Assembly: GCA_900557255.1 (NCBI GenBank) | Contig: USSA01000187.1 | Span: forward strand, 1-5,525 | Reading direction: 5' to 3' | Source of the DNA: an uncultured Prevotella sp. | GTDB lineage: Bacteria > Bacteroidota > Bacteroidia > Bacteroidales > Bacteroidaceae | DNA length: 5,525 bases | Shown here: one piece after another, positions 1,320 through 5,525 of the stretch | Layout: every line of letters begins with the position of its first letter | Position numbering within the stretch: the stretch's first letter is position 1 | The notes under the pieces: model-generated | The model's database searches: none | The model's input: the letters and a program-made list of their open reading frames with translations, nothing else | Told to the model about the DNA's origin: nothing | Position numbers and translations under genes: made by a program

Positions 1320-1928
1320 ATGGGACAGATTAAAGTTGAGAAAAATGTAGGCGGCATCGAGGGTCTCTGTGTTATTGAGCCTGCTGTTCATGGTGATGCC
1401 CGTGGTTATTTTATGGAAACCTACAATGAAAAAGATATGAAGGAGGCTGGCATCGACATTCACTTCGTGCAGGATAACCAGTCAATGTCCACGAAGGGCG
1501 TGCTGCGTGGCCTGCACTTCCAGAAACAGTATCCGCAATGCAAGCTGGTGCGCGCTGTGCGCGGCACTGTGTTTGATGTTGCTGTTGATCTCAGAAGCAA
1601 TTCCGAAACCTATGGAAAGTGGTATGGTGTGACCCTTTCTGCTGAGAACAAGAAGCAGTTCCTCATTCCAGAAGGCTTTGCGCACGGTTTCCTGGTTTTG
1701 AGTGATGAGGCAGAGTTTTGCTACAAAGTCAACGACTTCTGGCATCCGAACGATGAGGGCGGCATGGCTTGGAACGATCCTGAAATCGGCATCGAGTGGC
1801 CGCAGCTGAAGGGCGAATACAAGGGAAGTGCAAGTGCAGAGGGCTACACTCTGGAAGATGGAACTGCGCTGAACTTGAGTGATAAAGACCAGAAGTGGCT
1901 GGGACTGAAGGATACCTTTAAGTTTTGA
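1320..1928 (+). CDS. rfbC: dTDP-4-dehydrorhamnose 3,5-epimerase
   Basis: RfbC/RmlC is a cytoplasmic cupin-fold enzyme that epimerises C3 and C5 of dTDP-4-dehydro-6-deoxyglucose and supplies the substrate of RfbD. The protein is 202 residues, at the long end of the family. Visible signatures are HGDARGYFMETYN (residues 24-36), QDNQS (51-55), KGVLRGLHFQ with the catalytic His66, FDVAVDLR (85-92), IPEGFAHGF with His122, FCYKVNDFW with Tyr135, and WNDPEIGIEWP (151-161). LSDKD at 186-190 probably carries the Asp of the His-Asp dyad; this is an alignment from memory. AGAGGAG at 1304-1310 lies 9 nt before the ATG and overlaps the rfbD stop codon. It is the last gene of the rhamnose cluster and is followed by a hairpin and a ribozyme instead of a T-tailed terminator. 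Confidence 0.97.
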   Translation: MGQIKVEKNVGGIEGLCVIEPAVHGDARGYFMETYNEKDMKEAGIDIHFVQDNQSMSTKGVLRGLHFQKQYPQCKLVRAVRGTVFDVAVDLRSNSETYGKWYGVTLSAENKKQFLIPEGFAHGFLVLSDEAEFCYKVNDFWHPNDEGGMAWNDPEIGIEWPQLKGEYKGSASAEGYTLEDGTALNLSDKDQKWLGLKDTFKF

Positions 1929-1936
1929 TTAAAAAG

Positions 1937-1956
1937 CCGTGTGAGAGTTCACACGG
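1937..1956 (+). other. perfect 8-bp hairpin at the 3' end of the rfbC message
   Basis: CCGTGTGA (1937-1944) and TCACACGG (1949-1956) form a perfect 8-bp stem with a 4-nt GAGT loop, 8 nt after the rfbC stop codon. No T-run follows (next bases are TAGTTGCTC), so it does not look like a standard intrinsic terminator. It ends two nucleotides before the predicted ribozyme cleavage site between 1958 and 1959. I infer that, after cleavage, it would be the terminal structure of the rfbBDC mRNA and could protect it against 3' exonucleases. Residual termination activity cannot be excluded. Confidence 0.75.
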
Positions 1957-1958
1957 TA

Positions 1959-2031
1959 GTTGCTCGGATAATCACACACCTCTTCGTGGTGAGCAGCAGG
2001 CAACGATCCATTTTGATCGGCTGAGATGTGA
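1959..2031 (+). ncRNA. HDV-like self-cleaving ribozyme, copy 1
   Basis: The sequence folds into the nested double pseudoknot of the hepatitis delta virus ribozyme family. P1 is 7 bp: 1959-1965 (GTTGCTC) with 1991-1997 (GAGCAGC), including one G-U wobble. J1/2 is 1966-1971. P2 is TCACA 1972-1976 with TGTGA 2027-2031. P3 is ACC 1978-1980 with GGT 1988-1990, closed by the 7-nt loop L3 TCTTCGT, matching the delta pattern UCnUCGY. P1' is followed by AGGCAAC (1998-2004), nearly the GGGCAAC of genomic HDV. P4 is CGATC 2004-2008 with GATCG 2015-2019. J4/2 is GCTGAGA (2020-2026), with C2021 in the place of catalytic C75. Predicted cleavage is just 5' of G1959. It lies in the leader of the nucleotidyltransferase gene. 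HDV-like ribozymes are known from F. prausnitzii (drz-Fprau-1, next to glmM). Activity is inferred from the fold. Confidence 0.9.
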
Positions 2032-2042
2032 AAAACGAAACT

Positions 2043-2083: not shown

Positions 2084-2986
2084 ATGAATACAACATTACT
2101 TATCATGGCTGCTGGTATCGGTAGCCGCTTCGGAACAGGAATCAAGCAGTTGGAGCCGGTTGATGATGCTGGACATATCATCATGGATTACTCAATCCAT
2201 GATGCGATTGAGGCTGGTTTCAACCATGTAGTATTTATCATCCGTAAGGATATCGAGAAAGAATTCAAAGAGGTCATCGGTGATCGCATTGCCTCCATTT
2301 GTTCTTCTCATAATGTAACTGTTGACTATGCTTTCCAAGATATTAATGATATCCCGGGAACTCTGCCAGAAGGCCGTACAAAACCTTGGGGAACCGGTCA
2401 GGCTGTGCTTGCAGCGAAGAAGGTCATCAAGACTCCGTTTATCGTTATCAATGCAGATGATTACTATGGCAAGGAAGGCTTCAAGGCGGTTCATGAGTAT
2501 CTAGTGAATGGCGGCGAGTCCTGTATGGCAGGCTTTGTGCTGAAGAATACTCTGTCTGATAATGGCGGTGTGACCCGTGGCATCTGCAAGATGGATGATC
2601 AGAACAATCTGACTGAGGTTGTGGAAACCAAGAACATCGTCAAGACTGCGACTGGAGCAGAAGCAGACGGCGTGGTTGTTGATGTAAATTCTCTGGTATC
2701 TATGAATATGTGGGGACTGACACCTGATTTTCTTGATGTACTGGAAGAAGGCTTCAAAGAATTCTTTGAGAAAGAAGTCACGGGCAATCCTCTGAAGGCA
2801 GAATACCTGATTCCCATCTTCATCGGTGAGCTGCTGGAGCAGGGCAAGATGTCTGTGAAGGTTTTGAAAACCAATGATACTTGGTATGGTATGACCTACC
2901 ATGAGGACGTTGCAGCAGTAAAGGACAGCTTTAAGAAGATGTTGGAGAACGATGTGTACAAAGCTGACTTGTTCAGTAATCTGTAA
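2084..2986 (+). CDS. sugar-phosphate nucleotidyltransferase-like protein
   Basis: This is a 300-residue protein of the NTP-transferase (GT-A-like) superfamily, expected to transfer NMP from an NTP to a phosphorylated substrate. The substrate cannot be read from the sequence. The N-terminal nucleotide-binding signature is MAAGIGSRFG (residues 8-17) followed by KQLEPV (21-26). PWGTGQAVLAAK (101-112) is the second nucleotide-contact region, and NADDYYG (123-129) supplies the metal-binding Asp pair. ETKNI and MNMWGLTP (207-214) resemble the sugar-phosphate side of the pocket. It is not a typical RfbA, which has GGSGTRL and a longer helical tail. The ATG at 2084 has only a weak upstream AAAAGG, so translation may be modest. 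An HDV-like ribozyme lies 52 nt upstream, and a VanZ-like gene starts 3 nt downstream. Location beside rhamnose genes suggests a role in surface glycan or teichoic-type precursor synthesis (inference). Confidence 0.85.
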   Translation: MNTTLLIMAAGIGSRFGTGIKQLEPVDDAGHIIMDYSIHDAIEAGFNHVVFIIRKDIEKEFKEVIGDRIASICSSHNVTVDYAFQDINDIPGTLPEGRTKPWGTGQAVLAAKKVIKTPFIVINADDYYGKEGFKAVHEYLVNGGESCMAGFVLKNTLSDNGGVTRGICKMDDQNNLTEVVETKNIVKTATGAEADGVVVDVNSLVSMNMWGLTPDFLDVLEEGFKEFFEKEVTGNPLKAEYLIPIFIGELLEQGKMSVKVLKTNDTWYGMTYHEDVAAVKDSFKKMLENDVYKADLFSNL

Positions 2987-2989
2987 ACG

Positions 2990-3604
2990 ATGATGAAAGA
3001 AACGATTGATTTACTCGGAAAGATCTTCACAAACATCCTGACTGCTCTCTATGAACCGTTTGGATTCTCACTCTTTCTTTCCTTCCTAGCCATGTTTTTC
3101 TATCTATATGCCTATGAATCTATTGGAGCCGGAAAAGGCTGGAAGATTGCCATGATGACATGGTATCAAAAATTCAAGGAGAGCGTGTTCTTTCGGAAGC
3201 TTTTTTTCTTAGCTTTTGTGACCTCACTTGTTCTGTTCCGAACTTTGTTAAACCGTCAGCTGTGGATGAACCCGTTGAGTGATGTCATGGGCGGCTGGGG
3301 CATCTGGGAGACCGTGAACGGAGAGAGACAGCTAACCACTGAGTGCATCGAGAACGTGATCATGATGGTGCCGTTTTCAGCAGTAGTGGCGTGGACATTC
3401 GGAGAGAAGATAGGAAGCGGCTGGAAGAAGATACTGTGCTATAGCGGAAAGATAGCATTTATCTTTTCGGTGAGCATTGAGATGCTGCAGTTATTGCTGC
3501 GGCTAGGAACGTTCCAGCTATCAGACATCTTCTATAACACAGTCGGCGGAGTGCTAGGCGGATTGATGTATTGTGCGTTGATGAAGGCAAGAAAGCGTCT
3601 GTAA
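2990..3604 (+). CDS. VanZ-family integral membrane protein
   Basis: This 204-residue hydrophobic protein carries the VanZ-like pattern. Predicted membrane segments by eye are about residues 24-43, 69-85, 121-137, 147-163 and 178-197. FRTLLNR (83-89) follows the second segment. ENVIMMVPF (121-129) and EMLQLLLRLGTFQLSDI (164-180) followed by N183 and GGVLGG are the conserved VanZ signatures; Glu164, Gln167, Arg171, Asp179 and Asn183 are the recurring polar residues. VanZ of Enterococcus gives low-level teicoplanin resistance by an unclear mechanism; most relatives, including this one, have no known job. The gene starts 3 nt after the nucleotidyltransferase stop, with two adjacent ATGs (2990 and 2993) and no clear Shine-Dalgarno sequence, so translation is probably coupled to the upstream gene. 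A short cytoplasmic tail KARKRL ends the protein. Confidence 0.88.
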   Translation: MMKETIDLLGKIFTNILTALYEPFGFSLFLSFLAMFFYLYAYESIGAGKGWKIAMMTWYQKFKESVFFRKLFFLAFVTSLVLFRTLLNRQLWMNPLSDVMGGWGIWETVNGERQLTTECIENVIMMVPFSAVVAWTFGEKIGSGWKKILCYSGKIAFIFSVSIEMLQLLLRLGTFQLSDIFYNTVGGVLGGLMYCALMKARKRL

Positions 3605-3628
3605 AATGGGATGAAATTGTGATATACT
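3600..3628 (+). promoter_or_regulatory. candidate extended -10 promoter for the ribozyme-SEC-C transcript
   Basis: TGATATACT at 3620-3628 fits an extended -10 element (TG-N-TATACT, one mismatch to TATAAT). With a 17-bp spacer the -35 position is TGTAAA at 3600-3605, a poor match that an extended -10 can tolerate. Transcription would begin near 3635, roughly a dozen bases before the predicted cleavage site of ribozyme copy 2. This would place the ribozyme at the very 5' end of the SEC-C message. It overlaps the vanZ-like stop codon. Confidence 0.45.
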
Positions 3629-3644
3629 GGGAGCGGATGCTACC
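3629..3644 (+). other. short imperfect hairpin before ribozyme copy 2
   Basis: GGGAGC (3629-3634) and GCTACC (3639-3644) pair with one internal G-A mismatch around a GGAT loop. It ends three nucleotides before the predicted cleavage point between 3647 and 3648. This mirrors the hairpin that stands two nucleotides before copy 1. It is much weaker and overlaps the likely transcription start, so it may be chance. Confidence 0.3.
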
Positions 3645-3647
3645 TAC

Positions 3648-3727
3648 GCTGCTCTGATAAGTCACACACCTCTCCGTGGTGAGCAGCAAGCAACGGTCTA
3701 TTATAATCGGCGTCGGCGAAGATGTGA
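3648..3727 (+). ncRNA. HDV-like self-cleaving ribozyme, copy 2
   Basis: This is a second copy of the ribozyme at 1959-2031, with about ten substitutions and two indels, folding the same way. P1 is a perfect 7 bp: GCTGCTC 3648-3654 with GAGCAGC 3681-3687; the G-U pair of copy 1 is C-G here, a compensated change. J1/2 is TGATAAG. P2 is TCACA 3662-3666 with TGTGA 3723-3727. P3 is ACC 3668-3670 with GGT 3678-3680 and L3 is TCTCCGT. AAGCAAC follows P1'. P4 is weaker: CGGT 3694-3697 with ATCG 3706-3709, including a G-U pair and a possible short extension. The catalytic strand ends GGCGAAGA, as in genomic HDV GGCGAAU, with C3717 in the C75 place. A 6-nt duplication lengthens P4-J4/2 and may reduce activity. 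It lies 19 nt before the first possible SEC-C start. Confidence 0.85.
3707..3718 (+). repeat. 6-nt tandem duplication (TCGGCG x2) in the catalytic strand of ribozyme copy 2
   Basis: TCGGCG occurs twice in direct succession where copy 1 has a single TCGGC (2017-2021). The duplicated unit contains the end of P4 and the catalytic cytosine, so copy 2 has two candidate catalytic cytosines, C3711 and C3717. Only C3717 is followed by GAAGA directly in front of P2', the expected arrangement. A replication slippage origin is the simplest inference. Confidence 0.85.
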
Positions 3728-3746
3728 AAAGGTTGGATATGTGTAA

Positions 3747-5021
3747 ATGATGAATATACGGAGGAAGTTTTGGGATATAAAAATGAAAATATTTTCACTA
3801 CTAAATAAAGACGCAAAAATTCTTTATGACACAATGAAGGAACTTCAAATTCCAGAGAATCAGCTGTATTTGCATGACGATGAAAGTTGTCCGTGTGGAT
3901 CAGGAAAATCATACAAGGATTGTTGTAAAGGAAAAAGCGATGATGGCCCGGTGAATTCAAAGAAACCTGTTGAAGTTCTATTGATGGAAGAAATGAGAAA
4001 AGGATTTAAACAGGATAAGGTGTGCTTACATCCGGATCAGTCGAATTGCAAGGGAAAAATCAAAGAAGCACATGCTTTACAAAATCATAAGATTATTTCA
4101 TTGCTTGCAAGTGCAGATAATCATGTGATAATGCAAGATCCAGCTAAGCAACCTATAGTGATTAAAGAAGATCCTGTAAATCCAATACTGATTGTTCCGT
4201 TTACAAGAGTAAGTGGTAATAAAGCAACTACGCAAAGTTGCTTTTGCGATGTGCATGACACACAAGCGTTTAAGGTAATTGAAGCTGGATCACCTGACTT
4301 TGACGCAAATAATGATGAAATGAAGTTTGTGTATGCATATAAAGCTTTTGTTTTTGAATATGCAAAACAGAGACACTTGATGTGGCTATTTAGAAGAATG
4401 TTTTCAAAACGGCCGGGTGTATTCGCTTTGCCAGAGCAAGTGAAAGAGTATCGAATCCAATGCCTACGAATGGAAGAATTTGAAACGGTTAAGAAAAAGT
4501 TTGATGCAGAAATTTTAGCTGGAACACATGACGGTATAAGTACGGTTGTGGTTACAATTCCGTATAAGTTGGGATTTGCGAATTATGCATATATAGCCCC
4601 AGATTATGATATAGATGGAAATAGAATAAAAAGTATTGATAATAAGGGAAAAATGCATAGATTGGCAATAACGGTATTGCCGGAAGTGAATCAGTCGTAT
4701 ATTTTAATGAGTTGCTTAGATAGCGAAGAAGAATTTTACCGTTCATTTTTCCAATCAATAAAAACAGCTAACCTAGAAAAAATACTTTTCTATTTTAATT
4801 TGATGCTTCCGCTTTTTTCCGAGAATGTTATATTAAGTGAAGCTCTGTGGAATGCGTTAGATGAGAAAGGTCAATTTGGATTAACACATATGGCAAATTT
4901 GACGGGTGATGATCAGCTTAAACTTAGTCAGACACTAGGAATGGCACTTAGAAATGCTGCCCACAAAAAGAACTTTGATTATTCTAAACGAATGGGATTT
5001 GACCTTTTTCAGCAGGTGTAA
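3747..5021 (+). CDS. SEC-C zinc-motif protein of unknown function
   Basis: I do not recognise a named function for this protein of up to 424 residues. A SEC-C zinc motif, CPCGSGKSYKDCC, is at residues 48-60; this finger occurs in SecA and many nucleic-acid or protein-binding proteins. A second set of likely metal ligands follows: CLHP (93-96), Cys101, KEAHALQ with His109, His114, and CFCDVHD (165-171) with Cys167 and His170. That C/H spacing is reminiscent of HNH-like zinc folds, but no catalytic assignment is justified. FVYAYKAFVFEYAKQ (194-208) looks helical. No signal peptide or membrane span is seen, so it is probably cytoplasmic. The start is uncertain: ATG at 3747, or in-frame ATG at 3783 giving MKIFSLLNKDAK; GGAGG at 3760-3764 is 18 nt before the latter, too far for comfort. 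Its codons are far more AT-rich than those of rfbBDC, suggesting horizontal origin. Ribozyme copy 2 is in its leader. Confidence 0.85.
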   Translation: MMNIRRKFWDIKMKIFSLLNKDAKILYDTMKELQIPENQLYLHDDESCPCGSGKSYKDCCKGKSDDGPVNSKKPVEVLLMEEMRKGFKQDKVCLHPDQSNCKGKIKEAHALQNHKIISLLASADNHVIMQDPAKQPIVIKEDPVNPILIVPFTRVSGNKATTQSCFCDVHDTQAFKVIEAGSPDFDANNDEMKFVYAYKAFVFEYAKQRHLMWLFRRMFSKRPGVFALPEQVKEYRIQCLRMEEFETVKKKFDAEILAGTHDGISTVVVTIPYKLGFANYAYIAPDYDIDGNRIKSIDNKGKMHRLAITVLPEVNQSYILMSCLDSEEEFYRSFFQSIKTANLEKILFYFNLMLPLFSENVILSEALWNALDEKGQFGLTHMANLTGDDQLKLSQTLGMALRNAAHKKNFDYSKRMGFDLFQQV

Positions 5022-5093: not shown

Positions 5094-5213
5094 ATGCCCA
5101 GAACGAAAGGCAGCAAAAACCGTCCTAAAACCAATATCACCAAAGACTACGCAACCCAGATTGCAGAAAAGCAAGAAAAGCAGCAAGAAGAAATTTTAAT
5201 CAAAATTAATTAA
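5094..5213 (+). CDS. small basic protein, AT-hook-like N-terminus (39 aa)
   Basis: The frame encodes 39 residues beginning MPRTKGSKNRPKT and continuing with a Gln/Glu/Lys-rich helical stretch (residues 18-33) to a short ILIKIN tail. The start resembles the PRxKGSKNKPK motif found at the N-terminus of many small Firmicute and phage proteins and is related to the AT-hook minor-groove DNA-binding motif. Supporting evidence for translation is AGAGG at 5080-5084, 9 nt before the ATG, and an intrinsic terminator starting immediately after the TAA. It lies 72 nt after the SEC-C gene, possibly on the same transcript. A DNA-binding role is inferred from the motif only. Confidence 0.7.
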   Translation: MPRTKGSKNRPKTNITKDYATQIAEKQEKQQEEILIKIN

Positions 5214-5260: not shown

Positions 5261-5525
5261 TTATTCCTCTATACTAACCCTATCGCTACCAGCAATTTCC
5301 TTAAATTCATTATATATTTGTTCATTTATAAAAATTCCGCCAGACATAACAGATGTATCTCCATTTATTATTTTTACAGCAATATTATTTCTATCTCCTG
5401 CAAAAAATTTTATTGCTCCTCTTAATTTTTCTTTTTGCTCTTCAGATATATCTGTAATATCTATTTTTAAAATTCTAGAGCTTTTACTTCCAAACTTAGT
5501 AATTTTATTTGCAACAATTTTTGTA
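5261..5525 (-). CDS. C-terminal end of a very AT-rich gene, possibly DNA polymerase III alpha-like (5' end outside window)
   Basis: Read on the - strand, the frame is open from the window edge for 87 residues to a TAA at 5263-5261. It runs from TKIVANKITKFG through IDITDISEEQKEKLRGAIKF and FAGDRNNIAVKI to FKEIAGSDRVSIEE. The layout, strand, helix, GD followed by V-rich strand, then xxFKEIxGxxxV at the very end, resembles the C-terminal OB-type region of bacterial DnaE (replicative polymerase alpha subunit), where endings such as ELKELLGEENV are common. This is a by-eye likeness, not a firm match; another nucleic-acid-binding protein could share it. The gene is convergent to the rest of the window and faces the terminator at 5215-5243. 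Its extreme AT content (ATA, AGA, TTA codons) differs strongly from the rhamnose genes and suggests foreign origin. Confidence 0.6.
   Translation of the reverse strand, partial: TKIVANKITKFGSKSSRILKIDITDISEEQKEKLRGAIKFFAGDRNNIAVKIINGDTSVMSGGIFINEQIYNEFKEIAGSDRVSIEE

Follow-up and report, generated by a model that had tools for sequence, protein, structure and literature searches.

Hairpin and HDV-like ribozyme units at operon junctions of gut bacteria: a proposed co-transcriptional message splitter

Introduction

The closest described relative of the RNA analysed here is the Rfam family HDV-F-prausnitzii (RF02682), which we take to be drz-Fpra-1, located upstream of glmM. The F. prausnitzii glmM ribozyme has been linked to glucosamine 6-phosphate, and to our knowledge the role of bacterial HDV-like ribozymes is mostly open. 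Integron gene cassettes, exchangeable genes with attC sites, and RiboJ, whose ribozyme is a hammerhead, offer two further points of comparison. The theta ribozymes of gut phages are HDV-like and minimal, without P4; they are associated with phage tRNAs and have been proposed to process tRNA 3' ends (PMC10879173). RiboJ is a synthetic insulator derived from sTRSV with a hairpin downstream of the ribozyme (PMC6206723). Another paper mentions F. prausnitzii as carrying an HDV-like ribozyme (PMC8256844), and a further one counts candidate structured RNAs near integrase, sortase or phage domains, which the text consulted does not term ribozymes (PMC8040213). Among the matches listed, the open-access titles and beginnings of abstracts, a set that subscription papers mostly lie outside, describe neither the hairpin nor the defence and sortase junctions presented below.

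The ribozymes of the present set share with RF02682 the sequence, the fold and the catalytic cytosine, and include copies before glmM. They differ in that the family here reaches the junctions between nucleotidyltransferase (NTase)-VanZ genes and variable cargo genes, and comprises a pilin-sortase subgroup that scores below threshold. Like theta ribozymes they are HDV-like, and their cut would fall at the 3' terminus of a structured RNA, which for theta is a tRNA; unlike them, they keep P4, follow a hairpin and lie in bacterial operons. Copy 1 of our locus has a 5-bp P4, and the place directly upstream, which a tRNA would occupy in a theta ribozyme, is taken by the rfbC open reading frame (ORF) and the hairpin. 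Theta ribozymes are the nearest natural precedent. The likeness to RiboJ consists of a ribozyme and a hairpin at a junction and of a fixed downstream 5' end whatever lies upstream; here, however, the ribozyme is of the HDV type and the hairpin lies upstream, on the other cleavage product. With integron cassettes the units share exchangeable genes, each beside a structured repeat, but the repeat is here a ribozyme on the RNA strand. No integrase was found among the Pfam-scanned genes, a minority of the locus genes. A retrotransposon-type 5' ribozyme with a single conserved element was rejected as an explanation, as 42 groups of downstream sequence can be told apart among 70 copies.

Results

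The window, that is, the whole stretch of 5,525 nt that was analysed, carries on its plus strand an rfbC-like gene (1320..1928, named so by the first-pass annotation), a hairpin, ribozyme 1, an NTase gene (2084..2986, PF00483), a VanZ-like gene (2990..3604, PF04892), a weak hairpin, ribozyme 2, a 424-aa cargo gene with a SEC-C motif in Pfam (3747..5021) and a 39-aa ORF beginning MPRTKGSKNRP (5094..5213). By its letters and by comparison of loci, the last is a truncated relative of an MPRT ORF of ~109 aa found after the cargo in many loci. A partial 87-aa ORF lies on the minus strand at 5261-5524. The closest DNA relatives found belong to the genus Faecalibacterium (G017, G026).

The first-pass annotation had read an HDV-like ribozyme of the F. 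prausnitzii kind from position 1959 and called for a covariance-model search. With Rfam release 15, cmscan of the window returned a full-length RF02682 match at 1959-2033 (+) with 82.4 bits and an E value of 8.4e-15, the gathering score being 44 bits; the second copy, at 66.0 bits, also exceeds it. The family assignment is thereby confirmed, as is the start of the ribozyme, while its end moves from 2031 to 2033, where the Rfam match stops. Every helix that had been named, and the catalytic-type cytosine after P4 in J4/2 (C2021), could be read from the letters where it had been placed: a 7-bp P1 (1959-1965/1991-1997), a 5-bp P2 (1972-1976/2027-2031), a 3-bp P3 (1978-1980/1988-1990) with the L3 loop TCTTCGT (1981-1987), and a 5-bp P4 (2004-2008/2015-2019). 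Overlooked in that reading were P1.1 (1982-1983/1998-1999), which completes the nested double pseudoknot (P1, P2, P3, P1.1, P4), the second copy at 3648-3729 and the hairpin at 1936-1957. Cleavage is predicted between 1958 and 1959.

Comparison of copies supports this fold. In an alignment of 34 copies, both window copies included, 96.0% of cells are paired under the structure that includes P1.1 and the P2 pseudoknot, compared with 24-60% when it is slid, and P2 and P4 show two-sided base changes. Across 69 copies P1, P1.1, P3 and P4 pair in 97.5% versus 26-70% slid, in an alignment biased towards P1, P3 and P4, the helices to which it had been fitted. The cytosine at the catalytic position is present in 69/69 aligned copies; P1.1 pairs in 68/69, as CU/AG (60), CC/GG (4) or UC/GA (4); and 67/69 could form a P2 of at least 4 bp, a count made without a chance control. 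The structure line of RF02682 contains neither P1.1, P2 nor the upstream hairpin, and the model begins at the cleavage site. Chance resemblance to a ribozyme is ruled out by the RF02682 match together with the slid and shuffled controls, and copy 1 is expected, from its sequence, to be active.

From 1710 to 2160 the window is almost identical to genome G017, within surroundings of ~87% identity. An identical run of 337 nt (1710-2046) spans ribozyme 1 and is probably a recent recombination tract covering it; that ribozyme 1 matches G017 at 100% was discarded as proof of selection, because the ribozyme lies inside this run.

Copy 2 (3648..3729, +), recognised by the covariance model and by its letters, looks less intact. 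One pair of its P1.1 is broken by the AA at 3688-3689 (CU/AA), the sole such case among the 69 copies, and TCGGCG is duplicated before the J4/2 strand, a duplication absent in L096, which holds the closest relative of the cargo. C3717 is the candidate catalytic cytosine. The preceding hairpin (3628..3646, +; flank fold and letters) is weakened by a mismatch and fails the strict test described below. Judging by these changes, copy 2 is expected to be partly decayed, weak or impaired.

Relatives were collected with an exact-pattern scan. A genome collection of 84,980 species gave 28 stretches, with Faecalibacterium, Blautia, Coprococcus, Clostridium fessum, Ruminococcus bromii and Anaerotignum among their sources, and a viral collection gave one. 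RF02682 was found in 18/20 of the first loci (22 matches; absent in L015 and L016) and in 9/9 of the remaining ones (10 matches). The genus Faecalibacterium has a match in at least 11 of 31 genomes and the Blautia family sample in at least 17 of 397, at least 12 of them above the cut-off, these being lower bounds since scoring covered a portion of the first-look candidates. Searches with model R2 matched 3/391 genomes of a class sample (one new), 16/397 of a further sample of the family to which G054 belongs (none new), 4/6 in the genus of G096 (two new), 2/41 of a Blautia genus sample (one new) and 1/2 in the genus of G053. No match was found in plasmids. Two unannotated faecal phage records match in part; in viral_contigs, a scan for the sortase-type core gave no match, and one for the main type returned L029 again and nothing further.

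Several relatives are altered. The copy at L109 2532-2609 is without the P1 5' strand and the hairpin, its downstream DNA resembles the Kiwa locus L007, and it looks like a recombination scar within the ribozyme. L192 453-522, which stands in front of an NTase start and scores 44.7 bits with model R2, has an altered J1.1/4 strand and P4 and looks decayed. A degenerate HDV-like RNA of 17.9 bits lies between NTase and glmM at L168 2519-2598 (= L119 4441-4520). In L115, L122 and L127 a hairpin-like insertion of ~21 nt in J1/2 displaces the covariance-model start.

A 9-bp hairpin (1936..1957, +) stops 1 nt short of the predicted cut by ribozyme 1; the 36-nt flank folds at -14.6 kcal/mol. To score such hairpins we used a strict test, chosen after inspection of the data, which asks for a perfect stem of at least 6 bp with at least 3 GC pairs, a loop of 3-9 and an end 0-4 nt before the cut. 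Two copies had been removed before counting (L109 2532, which has no P1, and L128 5213, judged a false positive), and the starts of L115, L122 and L127 had been shifted by 21 nt owing to the J1/2 insertion. The test is passed by 48 of 64 distinct flanks, which do not amount to 64 independent cases because many of them are related, versus 447 of 12,800 dinucleotide shuffles (3.5%). Of the 40 upstream 5-nt bins listed, the other 38 contain at most 6 flanks each. Mean flank fold energy is -13.4 kcal/mol, versus -6.2 in the shuffles. A lenient criterion, passed by 60/64 flanks, was discarded because 2799/6400 shuffles and 109/319 windows farther upstream passed it too.

The 3' arms of the hairpins are of 24 kinds, and the stems vary between subgroups. 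Each of the six loop-proximal pairs shows four to six pair types among 23 distinct arm pairs, a descriptive count given that the stems were selected for pairing. Four copies were found later with model R2; three pass the strict test, one of them (L186) not independent since its stem is the common GGGAGC-type, and the fourth has a mismatched hairpin. The 16/64 flanks that fail, that of window copy 2 included, comprise several with bulged or long-loop hairpins and two with almost none (L115_0, L092_0). An intrinsic plus-strand terminator at the hairpin of the window was rejected: no T-run follows it, and the terminator-like match there (1956-1937) is on the minus strand. Some stem types have arms that, by eye, could pair with ribozyme strands in a switch-like manner.

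The gap between the rfbC stop and ribozyme 1 is 30 nt, and that between ribozyme 1 and the NTase start 50 nt. With genes of the same strand on both sides and no plus-strand terminator-like match found between rfbC and NTase, a separation of two messages by the predicted cleavage would fit the anatomy of the joint. A promoter-like match occurs at 2021-2048 (10 of 12), such matches being no commoner than in shuffles. A place before an NTase is not peculiar to the window: a ribozyme precedes the same NTase also in L090, L097, L025 and L192. Likewise, the glmM setting cited for this family does occur (L091, L092, L093, L100, L101), as one of several.

In another, the ribozyme follows NTase-VanZ or NTase directly, usually 47 nt past the last sense codon of VanZ or 29-30 nt past that of NTase. 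The variable cargo genes behind it number from none to two or more, and many loci then continue with the MPRT ORF, a glyoxalase-family gene and a gene of ~260 aa. At L102 9797-9868 the MPRT ORF lies ~117 nt downstream with no cargo gene recognised between, an apparent empty cargo site. A further setting has a pilin gene upstream and a sortase gene downstream (L121, L184, L185, L187-L191), with SpaA-type and LPXTG-anchor domains in 7/7 upstream genes scanned and sortase in 8/8 downstream genes scanned. These eight copies score 33.7-41.8 bits, below the Rfam threshold of 44, and are a candidate for a new Rfam subfamily. Genome G053 holds four copies (L106 7162-7233, L106 13780-13852, L107 369-442 and L108 10045-10115), two between proteins of ~2,100 aa and two after such a protein and before another gene; both large proteins scanned have a phosphodiester-glycosidase domain, and the genes adjoining the ribozymes encode surface proteins or glycosyltransferases. 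Some copies match none of these settings. By crude gene calls, the first downstream ORF is on the ribozyme strand in 64 cases, on the opposite strand in 3 and absent within 400 nt in 5. The gap to the next start is often ~10-57 nt, leaving little space for a promoter, and longer in some loci.

The neighbours of the ribozyme differ between loci. Counting as shared at least 120 nt of similar DNA on a side, 1177 locus pairs, which are not independent, divide into 198 that share the upstream side only, 29 the downstream side only, 12 both sides and 938 the ribozyme region alone. In 182/198 upstream-only pairs similarity stops around the ribozyme 3' end, from 40 nt ahead of it to 29 nt past it; in 28/29 downstream-only pairs it begins around the 5' end, from 31 nt ahead to 16 nt past. 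One upstream group, 19 copies that come after VanZ-type DNA, leads into 13 downstream groups, and 9 of the downstream groups occur behind several upstream groups. Four different upstream groups precede the SEC-C cargo: besides the window, three loci have a ribozyme followed by similar cargo (91-97% DNA identity), and their DNA upstream is different. Judged on sequence, a ribozyme of the self-cleaving type would thus stand at a junction with interchangeable neighbours, as an insulator would. Other joints of these operons, such as that with the gene before NTase, vary as well and have no ribozyme; as gene order varies elsewhere, the ribozyme need not drive the exchange.

Close NTase relatives tend to have the ribozyme. 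Among the Faecalibacterium-genus NTase loci fetched, a count that leaves out a few further high-identity copies, 7/7 with 92-97% identity carry it in the fetched flank and 0/23 at 41-80% identity do. In the Blautia family sample it accompanies 8/10 NTase loci of at least 92% identity (in L168 it is degenerate and in L165 none lies within 1.5 kb) and 0/4 at 72-83%. This pattern suggests that the ribozyme moves together with an NTase lineage that has spread horizontally.

PADLOC matches were found in 18/40 cargo-side proteins at E<=1e-3, 12/40 at E<=1e-6 and 9/40 at E<=1e-10, against 1/20, 0/20 and 0/20 controls (one-sided Fisher p 0.001, 0.004 and 0.018). The 40 proteins, from crude gene calls and with second genes included, were chosen by eye as non-redundant; the controls were ten conserved neighbours and ten randomly drawn genes, half of the draw and its first part, located over 5 kb away from a ribozyme. 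Clear PADLOC assignments comprise Kiwa KwaA and KwaB (L007), Pycsar PycTM and PycC (L089), AbiH (L099), AbiGii-like (L125), PDC-S45 (L122) and ATPase-Toprim-like proteins (L092, L117); Pfam adds a Schlafen AlbA_2 domain (L109) and a RES domain (L105). The majority of the scanned cargo proteins have no clear defence assignment, and several cargo genes downstream of the ribozyme matched no Pfam or PADLOC family. The cargo of the window, whose best PADLOC match (E 0.00058) covers the SEC-C stretch, likewise has no clear defence assignment.

Discussion

We think it reasonably probable that the hairpin and the ribozyme form a unit that splits messages co-transcriptionally inside operons. RNA polymerase would transcribe the upstream gene, the hairpin, the ribozyme and the next gene in one pass, and the ribozyme would cut a few nucleotides (usually 0-4) past the hairpin. 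The upstream message, the rfbC-like one in the window, would be left with a terminal stem-loop resisting 3' exonucleases, and the downstream message would begin with a 5'-OH and the folded ribozyme, so that two genes would be transcribed together and yet differ in stability and translation. At places where strains differ by swapped neighbours (NTase-VanZ and cargo, defence genes included), the incoming gene would get a defined leader and the upstream gene a defined end; the action of the ribozyme at a surface-sugar/defence junction would resemble that of the synthetic insulator RiboJ.

What is observed is the fold with its covariation, the abutting hairpin, the placement at junctions and the differing neighbours; from these we infer cleavage in the cell, protection from exonucleases and an effect on protein ratios. 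The family match, the covariation, the hairpin statistics, the same-strand placement and the short gaps to the next start speak for message splitting. Its best fit is provided by the pilin-sortase operons, because they need far more pilin than sortase. Against it stand the persistence of copies that look damaged (window copy 2, L109 2532-2609 and L192), the 16 flanks without a hairpin of the strict kind, the longer gaps to the next gene in some loci and the promoter-like match at 2021-2048.

The hairpin could instead serve folding rather than stability. In silico, the P1 pairing probability is 0.65 with the native flank, 0.57 with a shuffled one and 0.77 with no flank, in a comparison that left out L109 2532, L128 5213, L115, L122, L127 and L092 8670. 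This slight advantage of the native over the shuffled flank, seen in 47/65 copies (Wilcoxon p 5e-4), together with the variety of upstream modules, would suit a hairpin acting mainly as a folding insulator that ties up variable upstream RNA, with the ribozyme just cleaning the downstream 5' end. We regard this as unlikely: the effect is small, the value without a flank is higher still, the fold model ignores the pseudoknot, and folding insulation alone leaves unexplained why the stem ends so near the cut. Even less probable, in our judgement, is a metabolite-controlled switch for amino-sugar genes that has been retained by linkage beside other genes. Such a switch would account for the recurrence of glmM, glmS and NTase next to the ribozyme, but the neighbours are surface-protein and sortase genes in the pilin-sortase subgroup and surface-protein or glycosyltransferase genes in G053, and none of the open-access literature matches listed on the F. 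prausnitzii ribozyme concerns glucosamine control.

The exchange of neighbours invites a reading at the level of DNA, in which hairpin and ribozyme would primarily be a recombination adaptor, a conserved repeat of ~100 bp for cassette swaps, with RNA activity secondary. The distribution of shared sides among pairs (198/29/12/938), the upstream group with 13 downstream groups and the 9 downstream groups with several upstream ones are in its favour. However, the RNA covariation and the conserved catalytic cytosine point to selection on the RNA, ribozyme-less joints of these operons vary too, the pairs overlap in their members and so are not independent, and family scans of neighbours brought no recombinase to light. 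We hold this reading, too, to be highly improbable.

A broader proposal is conceivable, which we put forward tentatively and as something short of probable: in gut Clostridia, hairpin-plus-HDV ribozyme units may be standard RNA connectors, a natural insulator giving context-independent message ends, by which defence, capsule and pilus genes are plugged into running operons. Were this true, anti-phage genes could be swapped horizontally without promoters or terminators of their own.

In summary, the abutting hairpin and the recurrent junctions (pilin/sortase and surface-sugar/defence) would turn a vague regulatory role of these ribozymes into a testable one, the making of 3' ends and the splitting of messages. 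The ribozyme junction may also mark a hotspot in which to seek new phage-defence genes of gut bacteria.
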